DNA from: Polyangium sp. 15x6
GTDB taxonomy: Bacteria; Myxococcota_A; Polyangia; Polyangiales; Polyangiaceae
Assembly: GCF_029960785.1 (NCBI RefSeq)
Contig: NZ_JASBQE010000018.1
Coordinates: forward strand, 62,001-126,000
Length of the DNA stretch: 64,000 nucleotides
Direction of reading: 5' to 3'
The translations under genes and the position numbers were made by a program. The notes beneath the pieces were generated by a model that ran no database searches, was not told the origin of the DNA, and saw nothing but the letters and a program-made list of their open reading frames with translations. Shown piece after piece: positions 16,950-32,223 of the stretch; the stretch's first letter is position 1; each line of letters opens with the position of its first letter.

Positions 16950-17060
16950 GACGGAGGCGAGGGTTTTACCCGGCCCGCTCGATCGGCGCAAGGACGATCC
17001 CGCCGAGAGCGATCCAGCGAGCCGGGCCCGGCAAGGGCGTCGAAATGGGCGGGGCGCGCC

Positions 17061-18200
17061 TCAATTCGTGCATTCGACGTTCGAGAGCATGCCCGTGCCG
17101 GTGACCTTGTTGTCGCATTTCACGATCGTGCCCGTCGTACCGGGGCCGACGTTGATGCCGAGGTTCGGGTTGTTGATGCCGTTGGCCGTGTTCTTCTCGA
17201 AGATGTTGTCGTTGCCCCAGCCCATGGTCGCCTGGCGCACGACGAAGCCGTCCTTCGGGGTCTTGTCGCCGGTGTTCTCCGCGAAGAGGTACTTGTTGCC
17301 CGTGACGGCCACCCACGCGTCCTCCGAGCCGTCGGGCGTGAGGCCCTCGCCATTGAAGGTATTTCCACGGACCTCGCCGCCCTGCGTGCCCTCCTTCAGG
17401 TCGACGTGCTCGGTCTGGATGCCGGGGCCGAACTTGTTATAGAGGATCTTCGTGCCGTCGCAGGCGTCCGGCATGTCCGGAGAAGGCCAGGCGCTGTCGT
17501 CGCTGCCCACGTAGACGCCCTCGGCCGAATCCGGCATGGCGAGGCCCGTGTTCGTGACCTCGCAATACTCGATCGTGTTGCGGCTGGCCCCATTGCGGAG
17601 CTGAATGGCCATTTCGCCGACGTCGTGCACGAAGAGGTTCGAGAGGATGTTGTCGCTCGATCCGTCGACGTAAATGCCCTTGCGGCCGCCCGTGATCGTG
17701 ATGCCCGAGACGACCCAGTAATTCACCTGGAGCAGGCGCAGGCCGGTGTTCGAGGACATGGCGCTCGTGTCGAGGATCGCGTCGCGCGGGCCGCATACGA
17801 TGATGGGTTTGTCCGCGGTGCCGCTGACCATCTCCAGGTCGAACGTATCGGCATAGGTGCCCGGCGCGAGGCGGATGAGCTGGCCGGGCGCGGCCTTGGA
17901 AAGCGCGTCCGTCAAAGCCGCCGCGTCGGCGACGTCGACCTCGGTGTCATGCGGCCAGTCACAAGGATCGGCCGGCGGGCCGCCGCCCGCGCCGCCCGCG
18001 CCGCCCATGCCGCCGGTGCCGCCCGTGCCGCCCGCGCCGCCCGAAGCCCCGGCGGCGCCCGATCCGCCCGCTCCACTCGAGCCGTCTCCACACGCGGAAA
18101 CGACGGGGAGCGCGAGCAAGACGGCCGACAAGGAAAGGACACCCGAGCCCGAAAGGAACGAACGAAGCGGCGAGGAAGTGCGGAAGTTTCTAGCGATCAT
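17061..18200 (-). CDS. Right-handed beta-helix lipoprotein (pectate-lyase-like fold)
   Basis: 379 residues from ATG 18200, which has GGAG 6 bases upstream. The signal peptide ends in VVSACG (lipobox), followed by a 35-residue Gly-rich linker common in Polyangiales surface lipoproteins. From about residue 95 the sequence shows the pattern of right-handed parallel beta-helix proteins: APGTYADTFDLEM, GLRLLQVNYWVVSGITITGG, SDNILSNLFVHD, SRNTIEYCEVTNTG and NDNIFEKNTANGINN. These resemble pectate lyases and carbohydrate-binding PbH1 repeats. Catalytic residues for lyase activity cannot be confirmed by eye, so a polysaccharide-binding or -cleaving surface protein is the safest call. The gene is divergent from the kinase pair at 18462. 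Confidence 0.8.
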   Translation of the reverse strand: MIARNFRTSSPLRSFLSGSGVLSLSAVLLALPVVSACGDGSSGAGGSGAAGASGGAGGTGGTGGMGGAGGAGGGPPADPCDWPHDTEVDVADAAALTDALSKAAPGQLIRLAPGTYADTFDLEMVSGTADKPIIVCGPRDAILDTSAMSSNTGLRLLQVNYWVVSGITITGGRKGIYVDGSSDNILSNLFVHDVGEMAIQLRNGASRNTIEYCEVTNTGLAMPDSAEGVYVGSDDSAWPSPDMPDACDGTKILYNKFGPGIQTEHVDLKEGTQGGEVRGNTFNGEGLTPDGSEDAWVAVTGNKYLFAENTGDKTPKDGFVVRQATMGWGNDNIFEKNTANGINNPNLGINVGPGTTGTIVKCDNKVTGTGMLSNVECTN

Positions 18201-18461
18201 GAAGTTCTCCAGCGAAGAGCTTACCTGGAGGCGCGGCAGGCGGGAACCACTTTGCATCGAGCAGAAGCGTGCTCGTGCAGGCCGCGCGACGATTGTCGGC
18301 CGTGAAGCATTGGATGGTTTGCCGTTCGGCAAGCGCGCCGGTCGAGGACGCGCATTCGGAGACGCGGGACACAAGGCCAATCCTGGCAGATTCCTGCACC
18401 ATGGACGGATGCTTCGTGTGCAGGCTCCAATGAATGCTCGCTTGACCCGGACCCCGGAGCC

Positions 18462-19605
18462 GTGCGTATTTTTCGATACATGCATGCGCCGCCGCCCCCG
18501 AAAGTGCTCGTCGTGGACGACAACGAGCCGAACCGCGTCCTGGCCGAGGAGACCTTGCGCCTCGAGGGCTACGACGTCGTGATCGCGACGACGGGGGAGC
18601 AGGCGCTCGAGGTGTTCGTCCGCGAAGCGCCCGATCTCGTGCTGCTCGACATACGTATGCCCGGGCTCGACGGGTTCGCGACGTGCGCGCGGCTGCGCGC
18701 CCTGCCGCGCGGGACCGAGACGCCCGTCGTGTTTTTGACGGCCCTCCGAGACCTCGAGACGTTCGACCGCGCGAGCCGTGTCGGCGCCGACGATTTCCTC
18801 ACGAAGCCGGTGCGCCCCGCAGAGCTCGTGACGCGCGTGCACACGCTCCTGCGCATCCGGCGGCTCAGCGTGGAGCTGCACGATCACTTCCGGGTGATCC
18901 GAAAGCAACGCGACGATCTCGTGCGGCTACAGCTCCAGAAGGAGCAGCTCGTGTCGTTCGTCGTGCACGACCTCAAGAACCCCGTGAGCTCGATCGAGCT
19001 GCACGCGCAGCTTCTCGCGCGCGATGCGTCGCTGTCCGAGGAGGCGAAGGAGAGCGCGGTGTGGATCGTGCACGAGGTGCAGATGATGAAGCGGCTCGTG
19101 CTCAACCTGCTCGATATCGGCAAGGCCGACGACGGCAAGCTCGATCCGCGCCGGAGCTCCATCGACGTCGGCGCCATGGCGGTCGCGGTGGCGAACGCGG
19201 CCGGCGTGCGCGCCGCAGAGCGCGACCAGAGCATCCTCGTGCAGGTGGCGAGCGGGTTGCCCGAGATCGAGGCCGACGCCGATCTCGTGCGCCGCGTCTT
19301 CGAAAACCTGGTCGACAACGCGCTCCGCTACGCGCCGCGCGGCGCGCCGATCTCGATCGGCGTGTCGGCCGGCGAGGGGCCGTCCGTGGTCGTGCGCGTG
19401 GCCGATACTGGGCCAGGGATCCCGGAGTCGATGCGCGAGCGGATCTTCGATCGGTACGTGCAGCTCGACGCGCACACGGCAAACGATGCGCGCCTGGGTC
19501 GAGGGCTCGGGCTCGCGTTCTGTCGGCTCGCGGTGGAGGCGCACGGCGGGTCGATCTGGATCGAGCCTTCCGCGCAAGGCACGGTGTTCTGCTTCAAGTT
19601 GCCTC

Positions 19606-19616
<11 letters not shown>
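18462..19616 (+). CDS. Response regulator-histidine kinase fusion
   Basis: 384 residues. An N-terminal receiver domain (VLVVDDNEPN, phospho-acceptor D63 in LLDIRMP, Lys in FLTKPVRP) is followed by a coiled linker and a histidine kinase core: phospho-acceptor H169 in VVHDLKNP, the N box NLVDNALRYAP, and the G boxes DTGPGIP and GRGLGLAF. There is no transmembrane segment. Receiver-first kinases act as intermediates in phosphorelays. Two starts are possible, GTG 18462 and ATG 18480; neither has ideal spacing. The gene overlaps the next kinase gene by 11 bases, so the two are co-translated and likely work in one pathway. Confidence 0.9.
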
Positions 19617-21504
<1,888 letters not shown>

Positions 21505-21575
21505 TCGGGGAGATCCACGGCAAAAGGAGGGGATGGCCCGAGGATGGTCCCGGCTGGTAGGCTGCGGACGCACGC

Positions 21576-22160
21576 ATGAACATTCGTACCAACGGGATCG
21601 TTTTGGTCGTCGCCGCCAGTCTGCTCCCCGCCTGCGGCGGCGAGAGCGCGTCGTCCCCGCCGCCGGAGCTGCCGCCGTCGAGCAGCGCCGCGGAGCGCGA
21701 GGAAGCGCCGCCTCCGCCGCCCGAGGCCGATCACGGGCCGGAGCCCGGGGAGGGCCCCGCGGCGAGCGAGGACGCGCCGAGCCCGAAGCCGTCCGCGACG
21801 ACCGAGGACAAACCCGCGGCGGCGGCGTCGGACGTGCCGGGCGCGAATCTGTCGATCGGGCAACTCGAGGCGGACGGGCTCGTTGCGAAGGACATCCAGT
21901 GCAAGACCGAGGGCGGTGGAATGGCGCTGCTCGGGGCGGTGCTGGTGACGGCGTGGATGTCGCCGCAAAAGAAGGCACTCGACGCCTGCGCGCCGGCCGG
22001 GACGGAGACGCGCGTGGTATGGAAGGCGCGCGGCGGGAAGGTGACCGAGGTGCAGGCGGCAGGCAGCCCGAAGGTGAAGGCGTGCGTCGAGCGAGCGCTC
22101 TCCGGGGGAAAACCCGTGCTCGAAGGGCATTGCGCCGCGACGGTCGTGCACGGAAAGTGA
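21576..22160 (+). CDS. Lipoprotein with acidic Pro-rich linker, unknown
   Basis: 194 residues. The signal peptide ends in LLPACGG, a clear lipobox, so the product should be lipid-anchored in the envelope. Residues about 25-85 are a Pro/Glu/Ala-rich linker of low complexity. The C-terminal 105 residues are a small globular domain beginning [12 protein letters not shown], with two cysteines (in DIQCKTEGG and DACAPAG) and two more further on (VKACVERAL and GHCAATVV). It resembles, only in style, the C-terminal domains of other myxobacterial lipoproteins. No family is recognised. The Nudix gene starts 13 bases downstream, so the two are probably cotranscribed. Confidence 0.75.
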
Positions 22161-22173
22161 AGGGGACGAAAAG

Positions 22174-22593
22174 ATGACCCGCCGCGCATTTTCCGTTGCC
22201 GTGTATCCGCGATATGAAGGGCGCATTCTCTTGATTCGTCATCGGCGGCTCGGTATCTGGCTGCCGCCGGGCGGGGAGATGCTGCCGGACGAGACGCCAC
22301 TCGAAGCGGCCGCGCGCGAGCTGCGGGAAGAGACGGGGCTCGTCGGTCGGTTCCCCGTGGTGAGCGATGTCGACGGGACGCCGCCCGGGTTCATCGGGTA
22401 CGAGGAGCATCCGGCCGGGAGCAAGGGGATCCACCTCAATTTCGTGTTCGTCGCCGACGTGGACACCGACGTCGTGCAGCCGAACGACGAATTCGAGGAG
22501 TGGCGCTGGGTGACGCATTTCGACGATGTCGGCGGGCCGCCGAACGTGGCCCAGCTCGGGCGGATCGCGCTCGCGGCGCGGGCGCGCGGGTGA
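22174..22593 (+). CDS. Nudix hydrolase
   Basis: 139 residues. A complete Nudix box is seen at about 32-54: GGEM...[17 protein letters not shown], matching Gx5Ex7REUxEExGU. Nudix enzymes hydrolyse nucleoside diphosphates linked to another moiety, with Mg2+ bound by the box glutamates. The preceding WLPPGGEM and the later EEWRWV are typical. The substrate cannot be told from sequence. The ATG at 22174 has AAGGGGAC upstream. A hairpin terminator follows the stop codon. Confidence 0.9.
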
Positions 22594-22598
22594 AAGGC

Positions 22599-22627
22599 GC
22601 GCGGGGCGGCGATTGCGCGCCCCGCGC
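22599..22627. terminator. Bidirectional hairpin between convergent genes
   Basis: A perfect 10-bp inverted repeat (GCGCGGGGCG, 22599-22608, and CGCCCCGCGC, 22618-22627) with a 9-base loop lies 5 bases after the Nudix stop and 26 bases before the stop of the convergent lipoprotein gene. There is no long T-run on either side, which is usual for hairpins in such GC-rich genomes. Confidence 0.6.
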
Positions 22628-22653
22628 GTCGGTTCGGCGGGAAGGGGGGAGCG

Positions 22654-23808
22654 TCAGTACACGGACTGGATCCAGTCCTGCATGGCGCTCGGACTGCAGC
22701 CGTGCTTCTCGTGGCCCGCGCCGAGGTTGAGCTCGTCGATGATCTGCGCGCAGGAGCAGCCCGCGGTGTCCTTCATGGTGAAGTAGAAGTTCGGGCCATT
22801 CGGCGCACCGGTCGTGAACGCCTTGCCGCCTTTCCAGATGGAGTGGTTCGGGTTCAGGCCCTCGGTGGCCGTGTCGTACGTCGAGTACGGGCACTCGTCG
22901 ACGTTGTTGCAGACGCCGTCGTAATCGGTGTCGCCCGTGCAATCGTACTCGCAGGCGTTCCCCGTGCCGTCGTAATCCGCGTCCTTCTGGGCGGGGTTCG
23001 CCACGTAGACGCAGTTGTCGCAGACGTCGCCGACCTTGTCGTAATCGGCGTCCTCCTGGTAGGGGTTCGGCTTGTCCTTGCAGTTGTCGCAGGCGTCGCC
23101 GACATAGTCGCCGTCGATGTCGTACTGGTCGGCGTTCTTGGCGCCTGGGCAGTTGTCGCAGAGGTCGCCGACGCCGTCGTAATCGGCGTCCTCCTGGTAA
23201 GGATTCGGCTTGGACTTGCAGTTATCGCAGGCATCGCCGACGCCGTCGTAATCGGCGTCCTCTTGGTAGGGGTTGGCCGTGCCTGGGCAGTTGTCGCAGG
23301 CGTCGCCGACGTAGTCGCCGTCGACGTCCGCCTGGTCGGGGTTCGCCACGGTCTTGCAGTTATCGCAGGCGTCGCCTCTGCCGTCGCCGTCGCTGTCCTT
23401 CTGGTCGGGGTTCGCGGTGGCCGGGCAGTTGTCACACGCGTCGCCGACACCGTCGCCATCGGCGTCGTACTGGTCCGGGTTTTTCGTGTACTTGCAGTTG
23501 TCGCAAGCGTCGCCGACGCCGTCGTAATCGGCGTCTTCTTGGTAGGGGTTTTTCGCGTACTTGCAATTGTCGCAGACGTCGCCGACCTTGTCGTAGTCAG
23601 CGTCTTCCTGGTACTTGTTCGCCAGGTAAGGACAGTTGTCGTAGGTATCGCAGACGTAATCGTAATCGGTATCCTTGCAGTCCAGACGACCTTCGGCCGT
23701 TCCGAGCTCCTGGTCCTCGTCCTCGGGGGTCACGGATTCCATGCAGCCCACTGCGATGAGCGTCGTCAAGACGGCGGTCAAGGAGTAGAAGGCATTCTTT
23801 CGTTTCAT
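22654..23808 (-). CDS. Thrombospondin type-3 repeat lipoprotein, copy 1
   Basis: 384 residues, first of three tandem paralogues. A lipoprotein signal (LIAVGCMES, lipobox AVGC near 19-22) is followed by an acidic segment and about ten thrombospondin type-3 repeats, DxDxDxVGDxCDNC with [10 protein letters not shown] spacers, which chelate Ca2+ in known proteins. The repeats are near-identical in places at the DNA level (22970-23660). The last 75 residues form a non-repeat module containing [11 protein letters not shown] and [13 protein letters not shown], shared with the other two copies. It is expected to be anchored on the outer membrane or cell surface. Function is unknown; Ca-dependent adhesion or matrix binding is a reasonable guess. 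Confidence 0.9.
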
Positions 23809-24192
23809 GCGAAATGCACCCCTCTTGTCGTACGAAGTCGAAACGCAAGTGCGCTATTTGTCCCGACGCACGGGGCAAACGCGCGACGCAGGTCCGGTGA
23901 CGGCAGAACCCCTCCGCGGACGGCATGCGCACGCCCCGCGAGGGCCGGGCATCGTGAAGGACCCCGACCCGCGTCGAATTCGTGCGGGCACTATTCACCA
24001 CGATGGGGTGACCATCAAGGTGATTTCGGGAGGTGAAAGCGAGGAAGGGAGAGCCCGCTCGATGGAGGGATTTCCCGGAGGGGGGCGCTGGACGATTCCC
24101 ATCGCTCCATCGAATCGCGTGACGATGGGGGCGACCGCTCGCCGGGGAGGCAGCGGTTCGTCGGCGGAGGCTGCGATTGCGTTATCGGCGAA
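23809..24192. other. Intergenic region upstream of TSP3 copy 1
   Basis: 384 bases with no convincing gene. It is the 5' region of the lipoprotein gene that starts at 23808. About 160-200 bases upstream of that start it contains a block also found upstream of the two paralogues, and further stretches around 23875-23935 are recognisably similar to 25265-25320 upstream of copy 2. No hairpin terminator is obvious after the stop of copy 2 at 24193. Confidence 0.6.
23968..24002 (-). promoter_or_regulatory. Conserved upstream block of TSP3 copy 1
   Basis: On the plus strand this block begins CCCGCGTCGAATTCGTGCGG and ends CACTATTCACCACG. It is nearly identical to 25356-25389 and clearly related to 26961-26995. 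It lies about 160 bases before the start codon. It could be a promoter, an operator or part of a long leader; I cannot place -35 and -10 boxes with confidence. Confidence 0.45.
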
Positions 24193-25134
24193 TCACGGGC
24201 CCTTGTTGATCCATTGCTGCATGATGCCGGGCGGGCAGCCGTGTTTGTCGATGCCCTTGCTGTTGATGGCAACGCCGAGCGCAATGCGGATCTGCTTGCA
24301 GGAGCAGCCTCTGGTCTCCTCGATGGTGTAGGAGAAGTTGGACGGGTTGCCGTTCCCCAGCGGACCGACGTCGAATTCGTCACCGTGCGTCCAGATCGCG
24401 TGGTTCGGTTTGAGGCCGCCAGGCGCTGTGTCCGGTACCGTTCCCGGGCAGTCGTCGTCGTCGTCGCAGACGCCATCTTCATCCGCGTCCGTCGTGCAGC
24501 CGATGACGACGACAGGGTCGCACGCGTCCCCCTTGCCGTCACCGTCCGAGTCCGTTTGGCCGGGGTTCGGGTCGTAGGGACAGTTGTCGACGTCATTGCA
24601 TACGCCGTCTTTATCCGAGTCGGCGCAGAGGACGATTTCACACGCGTCCCCGGTGCCGTCCTTGTCCTTGTCCGCCTGGCCGGAGTTCGGGTCGTTGGGA
24701 CAGTTGTCGCAGGCGTCGCCGACGCCGTCCTCGTCGGCGTCCAGCTGGCCGGGGTTCGGCGTGTTGGGACAGTTGTCGGCGCTATTGCACACGCCGTCTT
24801 TATCCGAGTCGGCGCAGGCAACGATTTCACACGCGTCCCCGGTGCCGTCACCGTCGGTGTCCGTCTGGCCGGGGTTCGACGTGTTGGAACAGTTGTCGCA
24901 GGCGTCGCCGACGCCGTCGCCGTCGCTGTCTTCCTGATCGTAATTGTCAACGTTCCGGCAGTTGTCGTCGGCGTTGCAGATGCCGTCGCCGTCGCTGTCC
25001 GCGCAAGCCGCGATGAGCTGTCCCTCCGCGTTCCCGACGACCTCGTCCTCGCGGCGCGAAGACTCCATGCAGCCCACGGCGACGAGCGTGGCGAAGAAAG
25101 CAGTCACGTAGTGGAAGCCATTGGTTCGTTTCAT
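24193..25134 (-). CDS. Thrombospondin type-3 repeat lipoprotein, copy 2
   Basis: 313 residues from ATG 25134 ([14 protein letters not shown]), aligned with the starts of the other two copies and preceded by AGAGGGGTGGG. The lipobox is VAVGCMES. Seven or so type-3 repeats follow ([14 protein letters not shown], with [11 protein letters not shown] spacers); three of them carry a longer [16 protein letters not shown] insert. The C-terminal module ([25 protein letters not shown]) matches the paralogues. It is likely surface-anchored and Ca-binding. Each copy has its own conserved upstream block, so they are probably separate transcription units rather than an operon. Confidence 0.9.
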
Positions 25135-25645
25135 GTCGAGACCCACCCCTCTTGTTCGTACGGGAACGCTCATGGCCGAGCCCGGCACCCCGCTTCGGAG
25201 GAAGGCGCTCGCTCGACCCACGAAATCACCATTGCGCTGTTCTCCCCCGATGTTCGTGGGCGGAACGCGCGACGCGTGGGGACGGTGGTGGCAGAGTCCC
25301 CTCCATGCGCGGTTTTCCCACCCGCACGGAGGCCGGAACAATCAGGAGCACCGTTCCCGCGTCGAATTCGTGCCGCACTATTCACCACGGAGCGGCGGTC
25401 ATCAAGGAGAAATCGGGAGGTCGAGGCGAGGAGGGAACACGCCGCTGGATTGACGGATCACCCGAAGCAGAGCGCAAAGTCGCGACGAACCCGCTCCGTC
25501 GGCGAAAAGCCGCGGTCGTCGGGAACGCCGGGGTTTTTCCCGTCGCTTTGGTGATTGTCTGGAGGATCGGGAAGGGGGCCCGCGATATGGAGCGGGAGGT
25601 GGTCATCGGACTGACCAGGCGGGCGCGCGCTGCATTGCGCGATCA
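25135..25645. other. Intergenic region upstream of TSP3 copy 2
   Basis: 511 bases without a supported gene. Short frames here have poor third-position GC bias and no ribosome-binding sites. The half nearest 25134 is the leader of copy 2 and holds similarity to the copy 1 leader (around 25265-25440). The part nearest 25645 lies downstream of copy 3, and I see nothing specific in it. Confidence 0.55.
25356..25389 (-). promoter_or_regulatory. Conserved upstream block of TSP3 copy 2
   Basis: On the plus strand it begins CCCGCGTCGAATTCGTGCCG and ends CACTATTCACCACG, differing from the copy 1 block by a single missing base in the middle. It lies about 220 bases before the start codon of copy 2. 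Similarity continues downstream on the plus strand (GTCATCAAGGAGAAATCGGG here, GACCATCAAGGTGATTTCGG in copy 1). Confidence 0.45.
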
Positions 25646-26764
25646 CTAGTGCATTTGGGAAATCCAGAATTCCATGGTGGTGATGCTGCAGCCGTGGTTG
25701 ATCATCCCCTGGCCGAGGCCGAGCGCTTGAATGATCTGCTCGCAGGAGCAGCCGCGCGTGTCCTCGAGCGTGTAAATGCGCGGCGCCGGCTGGCCCTTCA
25801 TGCCGCCCGTGTCGAAGATGGGGTCGCCGTCGACGAGAGCATAGCGGTTGTACCAGAGCGAGATGGCCGGCACGGACACCTCCGGGATGACCGTGAACTT
25901 GCAGAAGTCGTCCTGGTCGCAGATGTAGTCCCGGTCCTTGTCGACGCATTCGCATGTCGGGCTCGGGTTCTCCGGGCAAGCGTCCTCGAGGTCGCAGATG
26001 CCGTCGTCGTCGATGTCCGAGCAAGGAGGCGGGGGCGGAGGCGGAGGCGGGGGCGGGGGCGGAGGCGCGTCGCAGGCGTCGCCGAGGCCGTCAGCGTCGC
26101 TGTCGACTTGATCGGGGTTGAAGACGCCCGGGCAGTTGTCCTGGTAGTCGCAAAGGGAGTCGCCGTCCGCGTCGGCGCAGGCGTCACAGGCGTCGCCGAG
26201 GCCGTCGATGTCCACGTCTTCCTGGCCCGGATTCGCGTGATGGGGGCAGTTGTCGTCCGGGTCGCAGATCTTATCCTTGTCGGCGTCCGCGCATTCGCAG
26301 ACGTCGCCGACGCCGTCGCCGTCGCTGTCCTTCTGATCGGGATTGCCCCACGCCGGGCAGTTGTCGTCCTCGTTGCAGATTTTATCGCCGTCGATGTCGG
26401 GACAGGCCGCGTCGCAGACGTCGCCGATGCCGTCTCCGTCGCTGTCCTTCTGGTCGGGGTTTTTCCAGGCGGGGCAGTTGTCCACGGCGTTGCAGATGAA
26501 ATCACCGTCGATGTCCGGACAATCGCAGACGTCGCCGACGCCGTTGCCGTCGCTGTCCTTCTGGTCTGGATTCTCGTGGTCGGGACAGTTGTCGAGGCTG
26601 TCGCAGATTCCATCGAAATCGCGATCGGGGCAGGTCACGGGCGGCGCGATCAGGTTGTACCGGGAGGTCTCCACGTCCTCGCCGTGGCCGAAATCCATGC
26701 AGCCAGCGAGGATCATCACCGAGACGAGGCCCGTCGCATAATTGAAGCCATTCCTTCGATTCAT
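25646..26764 (-). CDS. Thrombospondin type-3 repeat lipoprotein, copy 3
   Basis: 372 residues from ATG 26764 (MNRRNGFNYATGLV). The lipobox is ILAGCMDF. About seven type-3 repeats are followed by a run of 13-14 prolines (encoded near 26027-26068) and a segment with CSDIDDDGICDLEDACPENPSPTCEC... repeats. The C-terminal module is EDTRGCSCEQII...HGCSITTMEFWI. Compared with the other copies this one has the poly-Pro insertion and an extra domain of about 60 residues (DFCKFTVIPEVSVPAISLWY) before the module. It is probably the ancestral or most diverged member. Ca binding is inferred from the DxDxDG repeats. Confidence 0.9.
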   Translation of the reverse strand: MNRRNGFNYATGLVSVMILAGCMDFGHGEDVETSRYNLIAPPVTCPDRDFDGICDSLDNCPDHENPDQKDSDGNGVGDVCDCPDIDGDFICNAVDNCPAWKNPDQKDSDGDGIGDVCDAACPDIDGDKICNEDDNCPAWGNPDQKDSDGDGVGDVCECADADKDKICDPDDNCPHHANPGQEDVDIDGLGDACDACADADGDSLCDYQDNCPGVFNPDQVDSDADGLGDACDAPPPPPPPPPPPPPPCSDIDDDGICDLEDACPENPSPTCECVDKDRDYICDQDDFCKFTVIPEVSVPAISLWYNRYALVDGDPIFDTGGMKGQPAPRIYTLEDTRGCSCEQIIQALGLGQGMINHGCSITTMEFWISQMH

Positions 26765-27131
26765 GGAAAGTATACCTCGCTTCCGTGGGACGATTGCCAT
26801 GGGCGGGACGGAGTCGCGCCGTGCGCGACGGCGCGCTCCGATGCACGAGCGGTAAGCGACGCGGAAGCTCGCGCGGCCCTTCGCGATCGATGGAAAGGCT
26901 CGGCCACGCGCGCGCATATGCGCGGCGCACGCGTGTCCGCGACGCACCGGGCCACCTGCCCCCGCGTCAATTCATACCGATACTATTTAGCCGGGGAAGT
27001 TCGGCTTTCAACCCGATTCCGCGGTGAGCAAGGCTGCGTCATTGCGGCGAATATCCAGGCGACGAGGAGACCTGGAGACCTGGCGGCGGCGCGAAAGGAG
27101 GGGAGCGCCATTCTCCGCCCAGGACGTGCCG
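26765..27131. other. Intergenic region upstream of TSP3 copy 3
   Basis: 367 bases between the start of copy 3 and the stop of the ndh gene, both on the minus strand. I find no gene in it. It contains the third, diverged copy of the upstream block at 26961-26995, so it should carry the promoter of copy 3. No clear hairpin terminator for ndh is visible. Confidence 0.55.
26961..26995 (-). promoter_or_regulatory. Diverged upstream block of TSP3 copy 3
   Basis: The plus strand begins CCCGCGTCAATTCATACCGA and continues TACTATTTAGCCGGG. It aligns with the copy 1 and copy 2 blocks over CCCGCGTC(G)AATTC and ACTATT(C/T)A, with changes between. It lies about 200 bases before the start codon. Confidence 0.35.
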
Positions 27132-28481
27132 TCAGGACCTCGAAGGGGAGGTGGCGGAGTCGGCCGTGCGCAAGGAGGGCACGGGGCCGTCGGGCGCGGC
27201 GGCGAGCAGGAGCTTCGGCTCGACGCCGGTATGGGTGGTGATGAGCCGCGCGCCCCGCTTCCACGTGAAATATTGCCAGATCCAGTTGAACATGACGAGG
27301 AAGCGGTTCTTGAAGCCAATCAGGAAGAAGACGTGGACGGCCATCCACGCGAGCCAGGCGAGGAAACCCGCGAGCTCGAGTTTTCCCATCATGGCAATGG
27401 CGCGCTTGCGGCCGACCGTGGCCATCGTGCCCTTGTCGAGGTAAGCAAAAGGCTCGCGCGGTTTTCCCCGGACCTCGGCGCGAATCGTGCGCGCGACGTA
27501 TTTGCCCTGCTGAATGGCCGCAGGGCAGAGGCCGGGGACGTCGACGCCGTTCTTGTCGCGACAAGCGGCCATGTCGCCGATCGCGAAGACCTCGGGGTGG
27601 CCGGGGATGGAGCAATCCGCGTCGACCTTGACCCGGCCGCCACGATCGAGCTCGGCGCCGAGGGCGCGCGAGAGCTTGGTGCCGCGGACGCCCGCCGCCC
27701 AGACGACGGTGGCCGCGTCGATGCGCGTGCCGTCCCCGAACGCAATGCCATCATCGTCGATGCGCGCGACGGGCCTCCCTTTTTCGACGGTGACGCCGAG
27801 CGAGGCGAGCTGGGCCTCGGCGCGTTTTCCGAGGTCCTCGGGGAACGCCGCGAGAATGCGCGGGCCGGCCTCGACGAGGACGACGCGTGTCGACGAAGGG
27901 TCGATGGCGCGGAAATCCTTGGAGAGGACGTGCGTCGCGAGCTCGGAGAAGGCGCCGGCCATTTCGACGCCGGTGGGGCCGCCGCCAATGACGACGAAGG
28001 TGAGGAGACGCCTGCGCGCTTCGGGGTCGGTCGTGCGCTCGGCGCCCTCGAAGGCGAGGAGCATGCGCTCGCGAATGCGCAGCGCTTCGTCGAGGGTTTT
28101 CAGGCCGAGCGCGTGCGTGGCCCACTCGTCGTGGCCAAAGAAGTTGTGCGTCGCGCCGACGGCGAGGACGAGGTAATCGTAGCGGAGCTCGCCCTTGTCG
28201 AGCAAAAGCCGCTTGCCCGGGAGGTCGACGCCGGTCGCCTCGGCGAGCAGGACGCGCACGTTCCGCTGGCGAGAGAAGACCGAGCGGATGGGGACGGCGA
28301 TGTCAGCCGGCGAGAGGCCCGCGGTCGCGACCTGATAGAGCAAGGGCTGGAAGAGGTGGTGGTTCGTGCGGTCGACGAGCGTGACGCGGACGGGCGCGCC
28401 CGCGAGCGACATGGCGGCGTTGAGCCCGCCGAATCCTCCCCCGACGATCACCACATGAGGCATGTCCTTGCGATCGGCCAT
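27132..28481 (-). CDS. ndh: Type II NADH:quinone oxidoreductase
   Basis: 449 residues from ATG 28481, which has GGGAGGTG upstream. Two dinucleotide-binding motifs are seen: VIVGGGFGGL at about 11-20 (FAD) and FVVIGGGPTGVEMAG near 160-175 (NADH), plus the late FAD motif VFAIGDMA and the AAIQQGKYVA segment typical of NDH-2. A C-terminal hydrophobic region (FLAWLAWMAVHVFFLIGF, then WIWQYFTW) provides membrane attachment. The enzyme passes electrons from NADH to quinone without pumping protons. A regulator gene is divergently placed 204 bases away and may control it. The family also contains NADPH-linked and other pyridine nucleotide-disulfide oxidoreductases, but the C-terminus favours NDH-2. 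Confidence 0.92.
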   Translation of the reverse strand: MADRKDMPHVVIVGGGFGGLNAAMSLAGAPVRVTLVDRTNHHLFQPLLYQVATAGLSPADIAVPIRSVFSRQRNVRVLLAEATGVDLPGKRLLLDKGELRYDYLVLAVGATHNFFGHDEWATHALGLKTLDEALRIRERMLLAFEGAERTTDPEARRRLLTFVVIGGGPTGVEMAGAFSELATHVLSKDFRAIDPSSTRVVLVEAGPRILAAFPEDLGKRAEAQLASLGVTVEKGRPVARIDDDGIAFGDGTRIDAATVVWAAGVRGTKLSRALGAELDRGGRVKVDADCSIPGHPEVFAIGDMAACRDKNGVDVPGLCPAAIQQGKYVARTIRAEVRGKPREPFAYLDKGTMATVGRKRAIAMMGKLELAGFLAWLAWMAVHVFFLIGFKNRFLVMFNWIWQYFTWKRGARLITTHTGVEPKLLLAAAPDGPVPSLRTADSATSPSRS

Positions 28482-28685
28482 GCGGCACCTCCCAGGCGGC
28501 CCGGGTTCGAGTAGACCCCGGGCGCGCCGCAGAACGGAAGTCTTTTCGACGGTTCCGTAGGGAAGGGGACACGCCAAGGCGAGAGGGGACGTGCAGCGCG
28601 CGGAGGTGATGGGCGTCGTCCCGATTCATGACCTACCATTTCGGTTCCGGGGGACGGCGCGCCCGAGGGCGAGCGCCGGTCGTGC

Positions 28686-29069
28686 ATGATCAAGAAAACA
28701 CGAAAGGTACGTCGCGTGTCGGGGAGCGCGGCCAGGGCGCGGCGTTCGCGTCGCGCGGCGTCGCCCGAAGAGCGTTCGGGGTGGACGTTCCTGACGAACC
28801 ACGCGCACGTGCTGTTCTGTCTGGCCGAGGATCCCGAGGTGCGGCTACGCGACGTGGCCGAGCGGGTGGGGATCACGGAGCGCGCGGTGCAGCGGATCGT
28901 GACGGACCTGGAAGGAGAGGGGTTCGTGTCGCGATCGCGGGTGGGGCGGCGGAACCTGTACGAGGTGCACGCCGACAAGCCGCTGCGGCATCCGATCGAG
29001 GCGCACCGCGACGTCAAGTCGCTCCTCACGTTGATCCTCCGCGGCCGGGCGCCGAGGGCCGCACGCTGA
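28686..29069 (+). CDS. Winged-helix transcriptional regulator (MarR/ArsR-like)
   Basis: 127 residues. A basic N-terminal tail (about 1-27, rich in Arg/Lys/Ser) precedes a winged helix-turn-helix: [36 protein letters not shown], then the wing [17 protein letters not shown]. The helices of the turn are near residues 53-78. It is divergent from ndh, so autoregulation and control of ndh are plausible but unproven. The ATG at 28686 has only a weak GAGGGCGAG site upstream. No ligand-binding domain is seen beyond the short C-terminal helix. Confidence 0.8.
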
Positions 29070-29231
29070 CCAGGAGCCCCATCCGAAACAAAAAGCACCG
29101 GAAACGCAGAGCCCTTCCCGTTTGGGGTTGGCTCGGGAGGAGGAGCCGTGCTACCTCGGTGGCGCTTTGGGCGCGCGTCCAGGGCCGTCCGACCAAGCGG
29201 TCGCGGCCCATGGGCACGTCGTCTGGAGGCT

Positions 29232-29321
29232 GGAGAGATGGCCGAGTGGCTTAAGGCACACGCTTGCTAAGCGTGCGATCGGGAAACTGATCCGAGGGTT
29301 CGAATCCCTCTCTCTCCGCCA
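29232..29321 (+). tRNA. tRNA-Ser (anticodon GCU)
   Basis: A 90-base class II tRNA. The acceptor stem is GGAGAGA (29232-29238) with TCTCTCC (29311-29317), the discriminator is G318 and CCA is encoded (29319-29321). The anticodon stem is CACGC/GCGTG (29259-29263, 29271-29275) with loop TTGCTAA, giving anticodon GCU at 29266-29268, which reads AGC/AGU. A long variable arm (29276-29293) and the T arm GAGGG-TTCGAAT-CCCTC are present. Confidence 0.97.
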
Positions 29322-29350
29322 GCCACGAACGAACAGGAACGAAGAGCGCG

Positions 29351-31402
29351 TCAGGGCGCGCGCCGTCCCTGGATGAGGTACACGAGCTCCGCCAGCGCGT
29401 GGACGTCGAGGCACAAGCGCACGGCGTCGCCGCGCACGATCGCGCCGTTGTACGGGCCCGCGAGCGCGACGAGCGGCGGCGCGGGATGCAGCGAGGCGTC
29501 CTCGATCTCGCCGACGGACGTGACCGAGATGAAGAAGGAAGGTTCGTCCTCGCGGCCCGGATCGAGCTCGAGGAGATACGAAGGGCCATCGTCGGGGCCG
29601 AGGGCCTCGCCGGTCTCGAGCGCGCCGAGGCCACGGACGCACGCCGCGAGGGGAAAGGCGAGCGTGTTCGGGAGGTCGACGCCGAAGGAGACGCGGCGGA
29701 CGAGGCGCGCAGGGATCGCATAGACGGCCTCGCCCGCGCGGACCCAGAGGACACGCACGAGGCCCCGTTCGAGCGGGACGTCGAGGGTGGCCGTGAGGCC
29801 CTCGGAAGGGCGGCTCGCGAGGCGCACGGTGCCGCCGAGGCGCCGCACGGACTCACGCACGAGGCCAAGGCCGAGGCCACGGCCCGCGAGGAGGTCGACG
29901 TTCTCGCGCAAGGTGAAGCCCGGGACGAAGAGGAGGCCGAGGAGCGCTTTGTGATCGGCCGAGACGGCACGCGCGGGAGCGATGGCGCCACGCGAAGCCG
30001 CGCGCGAGCGGACGCGCTCGATGTCGACGCCGGAGCCGTCGTCGCGCACGACGATGCGGAGCGAGGCGCCGCGTTGCTCGGCGGAGAGCTCGACGCGGCC
30101 AGCGAGGGGTTTGCCGAGGTGCGCGCGCGTGGTCTCGGGCTCGATGCCGTGGACGATGGAGTTCTGGACGAGCTGGAGGAGCGGGTCGAAGAGGCCCTCG
30201 GCGACGCGGCGATCGACGAGGGTCTCGCCGCCACGCGCGAGGACGCGGACGTCACGACCGAGCCTGCGCGCCTGCGCGATCGCCGCAGAGACGACACGAT
30301 CGAAGAGGGTCGCGACGGGCGTGGTGCGCATGAGCGCGATGTCGGCATGCGCGGAGGCCGCCTCGAAGCGTGAGCGTTCGGCGATGCCGAGGAGGGTGGC
30401 GGCCTCGGCGTCGAGGGCGTCGGAGAGGGCGGCGACGGCGGCGGTGGCCTTGCGGAGGCGCTTTTCGCGGCGAGGGAGGGCATCGTGCAGGCCGCGGGTC
30501 TCCGCGAGCGAGCTGCGGACACGACGGGCGCGGGTGGCGAGGACGCCGAGCTCGCGGCCCGCCGCGGCGATGGCGGATTCGGCGTGCTCGAGGGAGCGGA
30601 CACGATCGAGGAGGCGATCGAGAGCCGCGGTGGAGACGCGGAGGGTTTCGCCGGAGAGGCGCGCGGCGTGAGGATCGAGCGAGGGCTCGGGAGCGCTGTG
30701 CGGGGCCGTCTCCGGGGAGCTGTAGGAGGGCGGAGGTTGCGTGCTCGAACGAGCGCCGTACGCGAGGCGGCGGAGGACCTCGACGGCACGATCGGGCGCG
30801 GCGACGAGCTCGCCGAGGAGGCCTCGCCAGCGCGCGATCTCGGCGATGGCCCGGCGCGCCTCGACGTCGCTGCGGTTCGCGTCGCGCGCGCGGTCTTCGA
30901 GGCCGTGGCAGAACCACGCGGTGGCGTCGTCGCCGGCCGCGAGCGCGGCCGCCTTCATGGCGTGCACCTCGCGGAAGATGCCGGCGATGATGTGCGGCTC
31001 GGGGAGTTCGCCCGCGAGGAGCTCGTCGACGCGCGCGAGGCGATCGGTCATCTCCGCGGCGTAGCGCGCGCGTTTCTCGGGCGGCGCGGGGCGGCCGCGG
31101 AGGTCCCACGGCGGCTCGGGCCAGGCGGGCGCGGGGATGGGCCTTCCCGCGGCGAGGGCTTCCCCCGCGATGGAGAGGACGGCGCGCGCATCGACGAGGG
31201 CCGTCGCGTCGCCGTCGACGAGGCGCCGCTCGATCCGCGCGAGCGATTCGAAGAGCGCGCGCTCGCCGGCGACGCCGGCCGAACCTTTCAGCGCGTGGAT
31301 CGCGCGGCGCGGGGCGTCGTCGAGCCCGTCGCCTTCGAGCAGAGGGGCGTGGCGCTGGATCTCTTCGAAGAGGAGGCGGGTGAGCTCGCGATCCGCCGTC
31401 AC
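29351..31402 (-). CDS. cheA: CheA-type histidine kinase
   Basis: 683 residues from GTG 31402, overlapping the previous stop as GTGA. Domains in order: HPt with H36 in AIHALKGSAG; a second HPt-like segment near 165-200 (IFREVHAMKAAA) that keeps the His-x-x-Lys core; a Pro/Ser linker; a helical dimerisation part; a HATPase region (LLQLVQNSIVHGIE, VRDDGSGVD, GRGLGLGLVRE); and a CheW-like regulatory domain at the C-terminus (LVRVLWVRAGEAVYAIPARLV). There is no receiver domain; the partner regulator is at 32682. CheA phosphorylates response regulators under control of receptor arrays. The gene ends convergently, 29 bases from the tRNA. Confidence 0.92.
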   Translation of the reverse strand: MTADRELTRLLFEEIQRHAPLLEGDGLDDAPRRAIHALKGSAGVAGERALFESLARIERRLVDGDATALVDARAVLSIAGEALAAGRPIPAPAWPEPPWDLRGRPAPPEKRARYAAEMTDRLARVDELLAGELPEPHIIAGIFREVHAMKAAALAAGDDATAWFCHGLEDRARDANRSDVEARRAIAEIARWRGLLGELVAAPDRAVEVLRRLAYGARSSTQPPPSYSSPETAPHSAPEPSLDPHAARLSGETLRVSTAALDRLLDRVRSLEHAESAIAAAGRELGVLATRARRVRSSLAETRGLHDALPRREKRLRKATAAVAALSDALDAEAATLLGIAERSRFEAASAHADIALMRTTPVATLFDRVVSAAIAQARRLGRDVRVLARGGETLVDRRVAEGLFDPLLQLVQNSIVHGIEPETTRAHLGKPLAGRVELSAEQRGASLRIVVRDDGSGVDIERVRSRAASRGAIAPARAVSADHKALLGLLFVPGFTLRENVDLLAGRGLGLGLVRESVRRLGGTVRLASRPSEGLTATLDVPLERGLVRVLWVRAGEAVYAIPARLVRRVSFGVDLPNTLAFPLAACVRGLGALETGEALGPDDGPSYLLELDPGREDEPSFFISVTSVGEIEDASLHPAPPLVALAGPYNGAIVRGDAVRLCLDVHALAELVYLIQGRRAP

Positions 31403-32223
31403 GGCGAGGCCCCACCGTCGTCGCCCTGCGGCGATCCGGGCGAGGCTTCCCCTGTGCGACCTTCGTCCCCGAGCTCGCCGAGCAGGCGCGAGAGAGGCGC
31501 GAGCACGGGACGAAGCGCGCCGAGCAGGAGCGGGCGCGCAGGGGTCGTGGCGCGGAGCGTGGAGAGGGCGGAGAGCAGGCCGCGCGCATGTTCGGCCGCG
31601 AGCGCGACAGCCCGCGCGACCTCGGGATCGATGCCGGTGGCGCGGCGCAGGTGACGCTCGACGTCGGCGAGCGCGAGGCCCGCGCGTCCGGCCGCGTCGC
31701 CGAGCGCGCGCGCGGATCCGCCGGTCTCGTCGGCGGCCACGAGGACGTTCGCGAGCTCGCCGCGGATGAGGCTCGTCTCGGCGGCCATCTCCTCGACGAC
31801 CGTGACGAGGTCGCGCGTGGCGTCGGCGCCGCGCGCGGCGTGCGTGCGGATCTCCTCGGAGAGCAGGAGCAGCGCCTTGCCTTGCGGCTCGGGGGTGCGC
31901 GCGCCTTCGAGGCCCGCGTTGAGCGCGACCACGCTGAGGCGCTCGAAGAGATCCGCGACGCGCGTGGCCGCGAGCGTGAGGCCCTCGGCGTGCGCGGCCA
32001 TCGCGCCGGCGCGCTCGGAGACGCCCTCGATCGAGGCGCGTTGCCGCGTGACGGCTTCCATCAAGCGCGGCGCGCCCTCGGCCGCCTCGGTCACGGCGCG
32101 TTGCGCCTCGCCGTGCGCCGACCAGAGCGCGGTGTCGATGTCCGCCGATGCCTCGGGCGCGCTCGCGGGCTCGGCCGCGCGCCGGAGCACGTCGATCCAC
32201 CTGCGCCTGCGCGGCGCGCTCAC
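31399..32223 (-). CDS. Soluble MCP-like signalling protein
   Basis: 274 residues from GTG 32223, overlapping the CheW stop as GTGA and overlapping the CheA start the same way. It has no membrane segment. Most of it is a long helical hairpin, and the turn region ALNAGLEGARTPEPQGKALLLLSEEIR (about residues 95-121) corresponds to the receptor tip that contacts CheA and CheW, normally ALNAAIEAARAGEQGRGF. The tip is diverged (GL, TPEP). It resembles cytoplasmic receptors such as FrzCD in style, but is much shorter. There is no sensory domain, so the input must come from another protein or from the N-terminal 40 residues. Confidence 0.75.
   Translation of the reverse strand: MSAPRRRRWIDVLRRAAEPASAPEASADIDTALWSAHGEAQRAVTEAAEGAPRLMEAVTRQRASIEGVSERAGAMAAHAEGLTLAATRVADLFERLSVVALNAGLEGARTPEPQGKALLLLSEEIRTHAARGADATRDLVTVVEEMAAETSLIRGELANVLVAADETGGSARALGDAAGRAGLALADVERHLRRATGIDPEVARAVALAAEHARGLLSALSTLRATTPARPLLLGALRPVLAPLSRLLGELGDEGRTGEASPGSPQGDDGGASP

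Follow-up and report, generated by a model that had tools for sequence, protein, structure and literature searches.

A conserved C-terminal module shared by three tandem TSP3-repeat proteins of Polyangium sp. 15x6 and distributed sparsely in distant prokaryotes

The 64,000-nucleotide stretch of the Polyangium sp. 15x6 genome analyzed here (contig NZ_JASBQE010000018.1, positions 62,001 to 126,000; hereafter the window) carries on its minus strand three tandem genes, at positions 22654-23808, 24193-25134, and 25646-26764, that encode TSP3-bearing proteins of 384, 313, and 372 residues. The second and third lengths are counted from ATG codons at 25134 and 26764; the listed frames of 382 and 433 residues start at an upstream TTG and an upstream GTG, respectively. 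All three proteins have a common layout, in which a lipoprotein-type N terminus is followed by TSP3 calcium repeats and then by a C-terminal module. According to reading and a crude regular expression, each N terminus opens with a start that includes Lys or Arg, runs through a hydrophobic stretch, and reaches a Cys (..IAVGC, ..VAVGC, and ..ILAGC in genes 1, 2, and 3), and the -3 residue of the candidate lipoprotein signal is Ala in genes 1 and 2. The repeat arrays, whose limits are approximate and were set by eye, span 22939-23679, 24496-25008, and 25949-26635, all on the minus strand, and contain seven, five, and seven stretches that match PF02412 (TSP3), with a poly-proline break noticed on reading the third. 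As wholes, the proteins match this family with E values of 2.9e-39, 9.3e-29, and 4.9e-31 (132.9, 99.3, and 106.6 bits), all above the Pfam gathering cut-off of 25 bits, and the match covers the stalk, not the module. The modules occupy minus-strand positions 22657-22938 (94 residues, the last calcium loop included), 24196-24495, and 25649-25948 (100 residues each). The proteins end in WIQSVY, WINKGP, and WISQMH, none of which is Arg-rich.

The three modules share sequence well beyond the repeats. When their TSP3 part is removed, the modules align with one another at Smith-Waterman scores of 155, 132, and 121, whereas the highest scores among 2000 shuffles per pair are 48, 43, and 46. The pairs stand 22 to 27 standard deviations above the shuffles. 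An earlier note on this DNA, made from its letters alone, had described three tandem calcium-binding-type lipoproteins with a common C-terminal module, and they are present as described. The note gave the module 50 to 60 residues, which is too short, as the conserved unit comprises about 95 residues and starts some 45 to 50 residues N-terminal of the motif quoted there. In an alignment of 32 sequences, the unit begins with D.D.DGV.D..D.C..T, passes into a second loop, which in many copies reads ..ALxDGDxxFDT, and closes with TIEDTxGCSCEQII..LGLGxGHxKxGCSxxxMxxWI; the columns D, C, T, G, C.C, Q, G, C, M, and W are invariant or nearly so. The first 20 or so residues read as a TSP3-like calcium loop. 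The ratio of nonsynonymous to synonymous substitution rates (NG86) of the module is below 1 in all 15 ortholog pairs (range, 0.20 to 0.84), and selection on it is thus purifying, not extreme.

Most copies lie at or near the C terminus. Among 92 instances, a set that includes a spurious partial hit (L111; loci collected in the searches bear L numbers), a duplicate (L001 2065-3219), and one copy whose frame departs inside the module (L054), 53 reach to within 4 residues of the end of their frame and 68 to within 19. Longer tails follow the other 24; 8 of these tails (41 to 48 residues) are found in insert-bearing copies, in which the profile match breaks off early. Modules at L030-L033, L114-L116, and L119, from the phylum of L030 (Peribacterales by its record title), have an insert of about 20 to 25 residues that separates the CSC helix from the GC motif. 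In the L017 module, a long DSDSDS stretch separates the second loop from the CSC core, and a protein from the same genome (L094) shows a split module match with Asp and Ser residues ahead of the core. In one Polyangium-genus genome, the module of a second trio copy (L045 690-914) is confined to a 75-residue open frame, and the gene may be broken.

The module contains four conserved cysteines. The earlier note had proposed two conserved pairs from a motif that holds three cysteines; the fourth lies upstream, in the TSP3-like loop. In 76 rows with less than 80% identity, which still include the spurious L111, Cys2 is present in 76 of 76 and Cys3 in 72 of 76, and Cys1 and Cys4 are each present in 72 of the 75 rows with a letter at that position. 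For a test of coupled loss, L111 was dropped, which leaves 91 of the 92 rows, 75 of them at less than 80% identity; L001 2065-3219, a locus-cut duplicate of window gene 1, is set aside by the identity rule. Cys3 and Cys4 are both present in 72 of the 75 rows and both absent in 3, and neither is ever lost singly (Fisher test, 1.5e-5, kinship ignored). The joint losses occur at L040, from the order of the window genome; at L104, which has two tandem copies and comes from the phylum of the Acidobacteria-titled L008; and at L118, from the phylum of L030. Because Cys3 and Cys4 vanish only together, the alignment supports two putative disulfides per module, and to that extent the proposed pairing is borne out. 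Cys1 and Cys2 would then be paired purely by elimination, with no coupled loss of these two seen. Cys1 is missing from four non-redundant rows (L016, L017, L094, and L045), of which three are not clear losses: L017 has its Cys1 before the DSDSDS insert, the start of the profile is matched separately in the L094 protein, and L045 is the short frame. An extra Cys in helix 1 occurs in 7 of the 75 rows (L021, L053, L058, and L060-L063), and all 7 also have a Cys no more than 25 residues past the Trp, versus 6 of the 68 others (Fisher test, 8.6e-7, kinship ignored).

AlphaFold2, supplied with the 32-sequence alignment, gives two confident models. It models the window copy with a predicted local distance difference test (pLDDT) score of 92.7 and a predicted template modeling (pTM) score of 0.84, with helices at residues 63-70, 74-79, and 83-93. 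With a Sorangium copy placed first (pLDDT 89.2; pTM 0.81), a small beta pair and three helices appear in equivalent places. The predicted fold would thus comprise a terminal TSP3-type calcium loop, a second, D-rich loop that includes a small beta element, and three short helices packed into a compact core, probably held by disulfides Cys1-Cys2 and Cys3-Cys4. Foldseek rows that pair the second model with helix-turn-helix domains (E of 4 or worse) are not significant and are given no weight.

The core of the module belongs to no named family in the libraries searched. The three window segments gave no Pfam or NCBIfam match to the core. Of 32 module segments, 15 match PF02412 weakly (best E, 0.00015), and the one row shown covers residues 2-19. 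The likeness to TSP3 is therefore that of the first 20 or so residues, whereas no TSP3 match in the rows shown extended to the remainder, GCSC.QI...GC...M..W included. Stray matches among the 32 segments were to DUF6802 (two segments; best E, 0.029) and GEVED (one; 0.079) in Pfam, and elsewhere to MtsC (three; 0.0017), GTPase_EngA (two; 0.0098), PRK12935 (one; 0.012), and MSCRAMM families (one each; 0.028 to 0.049); a further library search returned only single rows at E of 0.031 or worse. In PDB sequences, the only match to the module profile is the calcium loop of an OmpA (5wtl; E, 3.7e-8), at profile positions 3-23 only. Across Pfam, NCBIfam, PHROGs, and PDB sequences, no match of the core to a named family was significant beyond the TSP3 type, and the published titles and abstract openings searched name no such domain, a statement limited to those searches. 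The earlier note had suggested a defined domain, which it did not recognize as a named family, and had named a match to a known domain with a defined role or absence from other genomes as grounds to abandon that view. The libraries gave no such match, and copies occur in several phyla. Judged by sequence, the domain is new to the libraries checked and adds to a familiar kind, the accessory extracellular domains. A family model of it would annotate part of the proteins that are now recognized by their TSP3 repeats only.

As the earlier note had suggested, a profile was built from the three copies; it recovered one further copy in the same genome (E, 2.2e-23), for a total of four. A pattern and tblastn scan with the three-copy alignment found 29 loci in a genome collection, the last four of them weak. 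Presence was scored at E of 0.001 or better, and the counts include their center genomes, which are known positives. All 6 genomes of the genus Polyangium are positive, compared with 0 of 31 from other genera of the family and 1 of 22 from the rest of the order. Samples of Myxococcota and of the groups of L008, L012, L028, and L030 were limited to at most 15 to 20 scored candidates per genome; for this reason and through the inclusion of center genomes, the counts are neither unbiased nor complete. They are 21 of 329 genomes in Myxococcota, 4 of 247 in the phylum of L008, 4 of 321 in the class of L012 (three weak and partial, leaving 1 firm), 4 of 247 in the phylum of L028 (Neolewinella; one weak), and 8 of 239 in the phylum of L030. 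The phylum of L027 (Nanoarchaeota by title) gave 6 of 148, one weak. Positive genomes have one to five matches each. The module is therefore spread widely but sparsely over several bacterial phyla and, by record labels, archaea. Taxon names of relatives are those of record titles and may mislead; L010, for example, is titled Pseudomonadota, but a genome whose matches fall at identical places is listed under Myxococcota. Spread by plasmids or phages was considered and is unsupported: the L013 module has no match in plasmid or phage collections, and 0 of 10 pattern matches were confirmed in viral contigs.

The module is joined to unrelated partner domains. It occurs with LTD and endonuclease domains (L008 and L011), with DUF7933/DUF11 (L017), with choice-of-anchor L (L004 and L013), with DUF4114 (L010, where TSP3-like repeats are visible by eye and uncalled by Pfam), with a DUF1559-type match and a type IX secretion system (T9SS) tail (L028), with TSP3_bac and a T9SS tail (L112), with a T9SS tail (L109), and with Laminin_G_3 (L125). 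The L030 protein has a pilin-like N terminus, judged by eye (NCBIfam score of 18.7 bits, far below the cut-off of 138), and a T2SSF gene adjoins it; pilin-like N termini are also seen at L032 and L033. Pfam finds nothing in L009, L022, L027, or L030. The fourth copy of the window genome (L004 13-1701, on contig C202 and not on the contig of the trio) lies in a choice-of-anchor L protein with TSP3-like repeats.

When all frames of 100 amino acids or more in L005-L033 and at window positions 17001-32000 were compared with one another, no partner gene was shared across the set. Outside the Polyangium set, 134 hits connect different loci. Where both frames lie largely clear of the module gene, the hits are mutual ones among L030-L033, hits between L025 and L026, and one each for L028-L029 (33%) and L017-L021 (34%); the remainder overlap the module gene itself, and those inspected are antisense frames. 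Relatives of the L025 nuclease body occur in 3 of 203 genomes, one of which is the source genome; two have the module, and the third is L132.

We favor, with about even confidence, the reading that the module is a self-standing extracellular domain that caps calcium-stiffened stalks and is most likely a binding head, not a sorting signal. The window proteins appear to be lipid-anchored at their N termini, and their TSP3 stalks would be stiffened by bound calcium. Because an N-terminal lipid anchor is combined with a stalk, the module would be displayed away from the membrane, presumably at the cell surface, where it could serve in adhesion to, or retention on, a surface, a polysaccharide, or a partner. 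Its partner parts are of extracellular kinds (TSP3, LTD with endonuclease, choice-of-anchor L, DUF11/DUF7933, Laminin_G_3, pilin-like, and T9SS tail), which counts for this reading, as do the wide distribution, the nearly invariant columns, the coupled cysteine losses, the confident models, and the substitution-rate ratios below 1. Ligand binding, to which the earlier note had also pointed, is a plausible role. Several observations weigh against it. In T9SS proteins, the module adjoins the sorting tail and is not at a free distal end. The joint loss of Cys3 and Cys4 rests on three lineages, and the Fisher tests ignore their kinship; L016, the only clear loss of Cys1, keeps Cys2 and so lends no help to a Cys1-Cys2 pair. 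No fold match names a function: Foldseek found none at E of 0.001 or better in PDB with either model or in BFVD with the first, and in VIA-align all Z values stayed below 2 when the two models were compared with 18 and 83 chains, although such negatives are weak for so small a domain.

A purely structural cap fits nearly as well as a binding head. It is possible, if on balance doubtful, that the module simply closes the C-terminal end of calcium-repeat arrays and guards them against unfolding or proteolysis without itself binding any ligand. It opens with a TSP3-like calcium loop and follows TSP3 arrays in the window, and its predicted structure is disulfide-rich and compact, as would suit such a cap. 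However, 8 of 10 carriers in one scan have no Pfam TSP3 array (L009, L010, L011, L017, L022, L027, L028, and L030), a soft count given that L010 has repeats visible by eye, and in the nuclease and DUF11-type carriers there seems to be little for such a module to cap.

More speculatively, and with rather low probability, the module may be an unnamed folded, non-cleaved retention domain of unrelated secreted proteins in distant bacteria and archaea, which it would attach to a common extracellular material, such as matrix polysaccharide or DNA, without a sorting enzyme. The Polyangium trio would then be co-regulated proteins of calcium-dependent cohesion. Among known systems, the trio is close to MtsC (NF047638), a cell-cell cohesion protein that its model name marks as a TSP3-rich myxobacterial surface protein. 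The window proteins match that model with 213.5, 146.3, and 170 bits, all below the curated cut-off of 350, and their best stretches lie in the repeats. MtsC is a MYXO-CTERM protein by its model name, whereas the window proteins have instead the module and an N-terminal lipoprotein-type signal. The trio offers a gene set with which calcium-dependent cohesion can be tested outside Myxococcus. Also, the coupled cysteine losses provide a concrete, testable disulfide map for an uncatalogued domain, found repeatedly in extracellular nucleases and pilin-like proteins as well as in stalked lipoproteins and a Laminin-G-type protein.

The surface-sorting role raised in the earlier note is unlikely, whether the module is taken for a C-terminal sorting or anchoring signal read by a dedicated surface apparatus or for a folded anchor, not cleaved, by which secreted proteins stay attached to the cell. 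The C-terminal location of most copies is suggestive of such a signal, as is the Gly-Cys-x-Cys motif: the module GCSC recalls the GCGC of MYXO-CTERM, which PMC11980579 describes as a Cys motif followed by a transmembrane helix and an Arg-rich tail. However, the last 40 residues of 88 distinct closed-end frames (L111 dropped) include no membrane-like stretch, with hydropathy maxima of 1.83 over 12 residues and 1.18 over 19 (1.73 in a smaller set of 62 such frames), and the window proteins lack an Arg-rich end; in these respects they differ from MYXO-CTERM. The T9SS type A C-terminal domain (TIGR04183/PF18962) is likewise a C-terminal region of secreted proteins, but its sequence is distinct, and neither model matched within the 32 module segments. 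In all three proteins tested that have this domain above cut-offs (L028 and, from a single genome, L109 and L112), the module precedes it in tandem. A sorting signal would also be redundant in the window proteins, given their N-terminal lipoprotein-type signals. The one to five matches per positive genome point the same way, but copy number alone is not decisive, because PMC11980579 also presents a sorting enzyme that has only one target protein.

The choice-of-anchor L family (NF038133), to which the fourth copy of the window genome is fused, bears on the same question. Within these proteins, the module occupies the place that is taken in L133 by a hydrophobic-plus-Arg tail, which was judged by eye and is not called by NCBIfam; this would favor a sorting or anchoring role. 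The NF038133 domain itself is N-terminal, and the module is a separate unit. The module was flagged in 5 of 30 choice-of-anchor L loci, with several other frames mis-picked by the script. Among the seven strongest matches, five have the module (one degenerate, L139), L133 has its tail, and L137 has a DNRLRE domain.

A metal or redox site, in which the C.C and H.C residues bind copper or zinc instead of forming disulfides, is very improbable: Cys-Ser-Cys, Gly-Cys, and the His that precedes Gly-Cys in all three window copies and some others are compatible with it, but His stands at that position in just 19 of the 75 non-redundant rows (Phe in 33 and Tyr in 12), and Cys3 and Cys4 vanish together while Cys2 stays, as expected of a disulfide.

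Each gene of the trio is preceded by a similar promoter-like element on the minus strand. The elements of genes 1 (23972-24018) and 2 (25360-25405) contain TTGATG-17-AATAGT, for which the -35 and -10 boxes were assigned by eye with no call from a promoter scanner, and that of gene 3 (26965-27011) contains TTGAAA-18-AATAGT, which the scanner called (one found, versus 0.5 expected). AATAGT with TTGATG or TTGAAA 17 to 18 bases upstream looks like a sigma-70 promoter, and because a similar element lies ahead of each gene, the tandem genes look to be separately but similarly transcribed. Alternatively, the shared element could be left over from duplication. Built on the trio, the pattern AATAGT-N7-10-GAATT-N0-1-GACG has four sites in 13.4 Mb, namely the three of the trio and one apparently in a 685-residue coding frame; a reversed control pattern has none. 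A looser pattern precedes orthologs of gene 1 or 2 at L005 (two sites), L006, L007, and L045, where the script-picked start at L006 is not the lipoprotein start and L035 repeats an L005 site; it was not found ahead of gene 3 orthologs at L007, L038, L039, and L044. Tandem module copies also occur at L005 (three), L006 (three), and L007 (two). Beyond the trio, a neighboring minus-strand frame at 27132-28577 resembles, by eye, an NDH-2 type NADH dehydrogenase.

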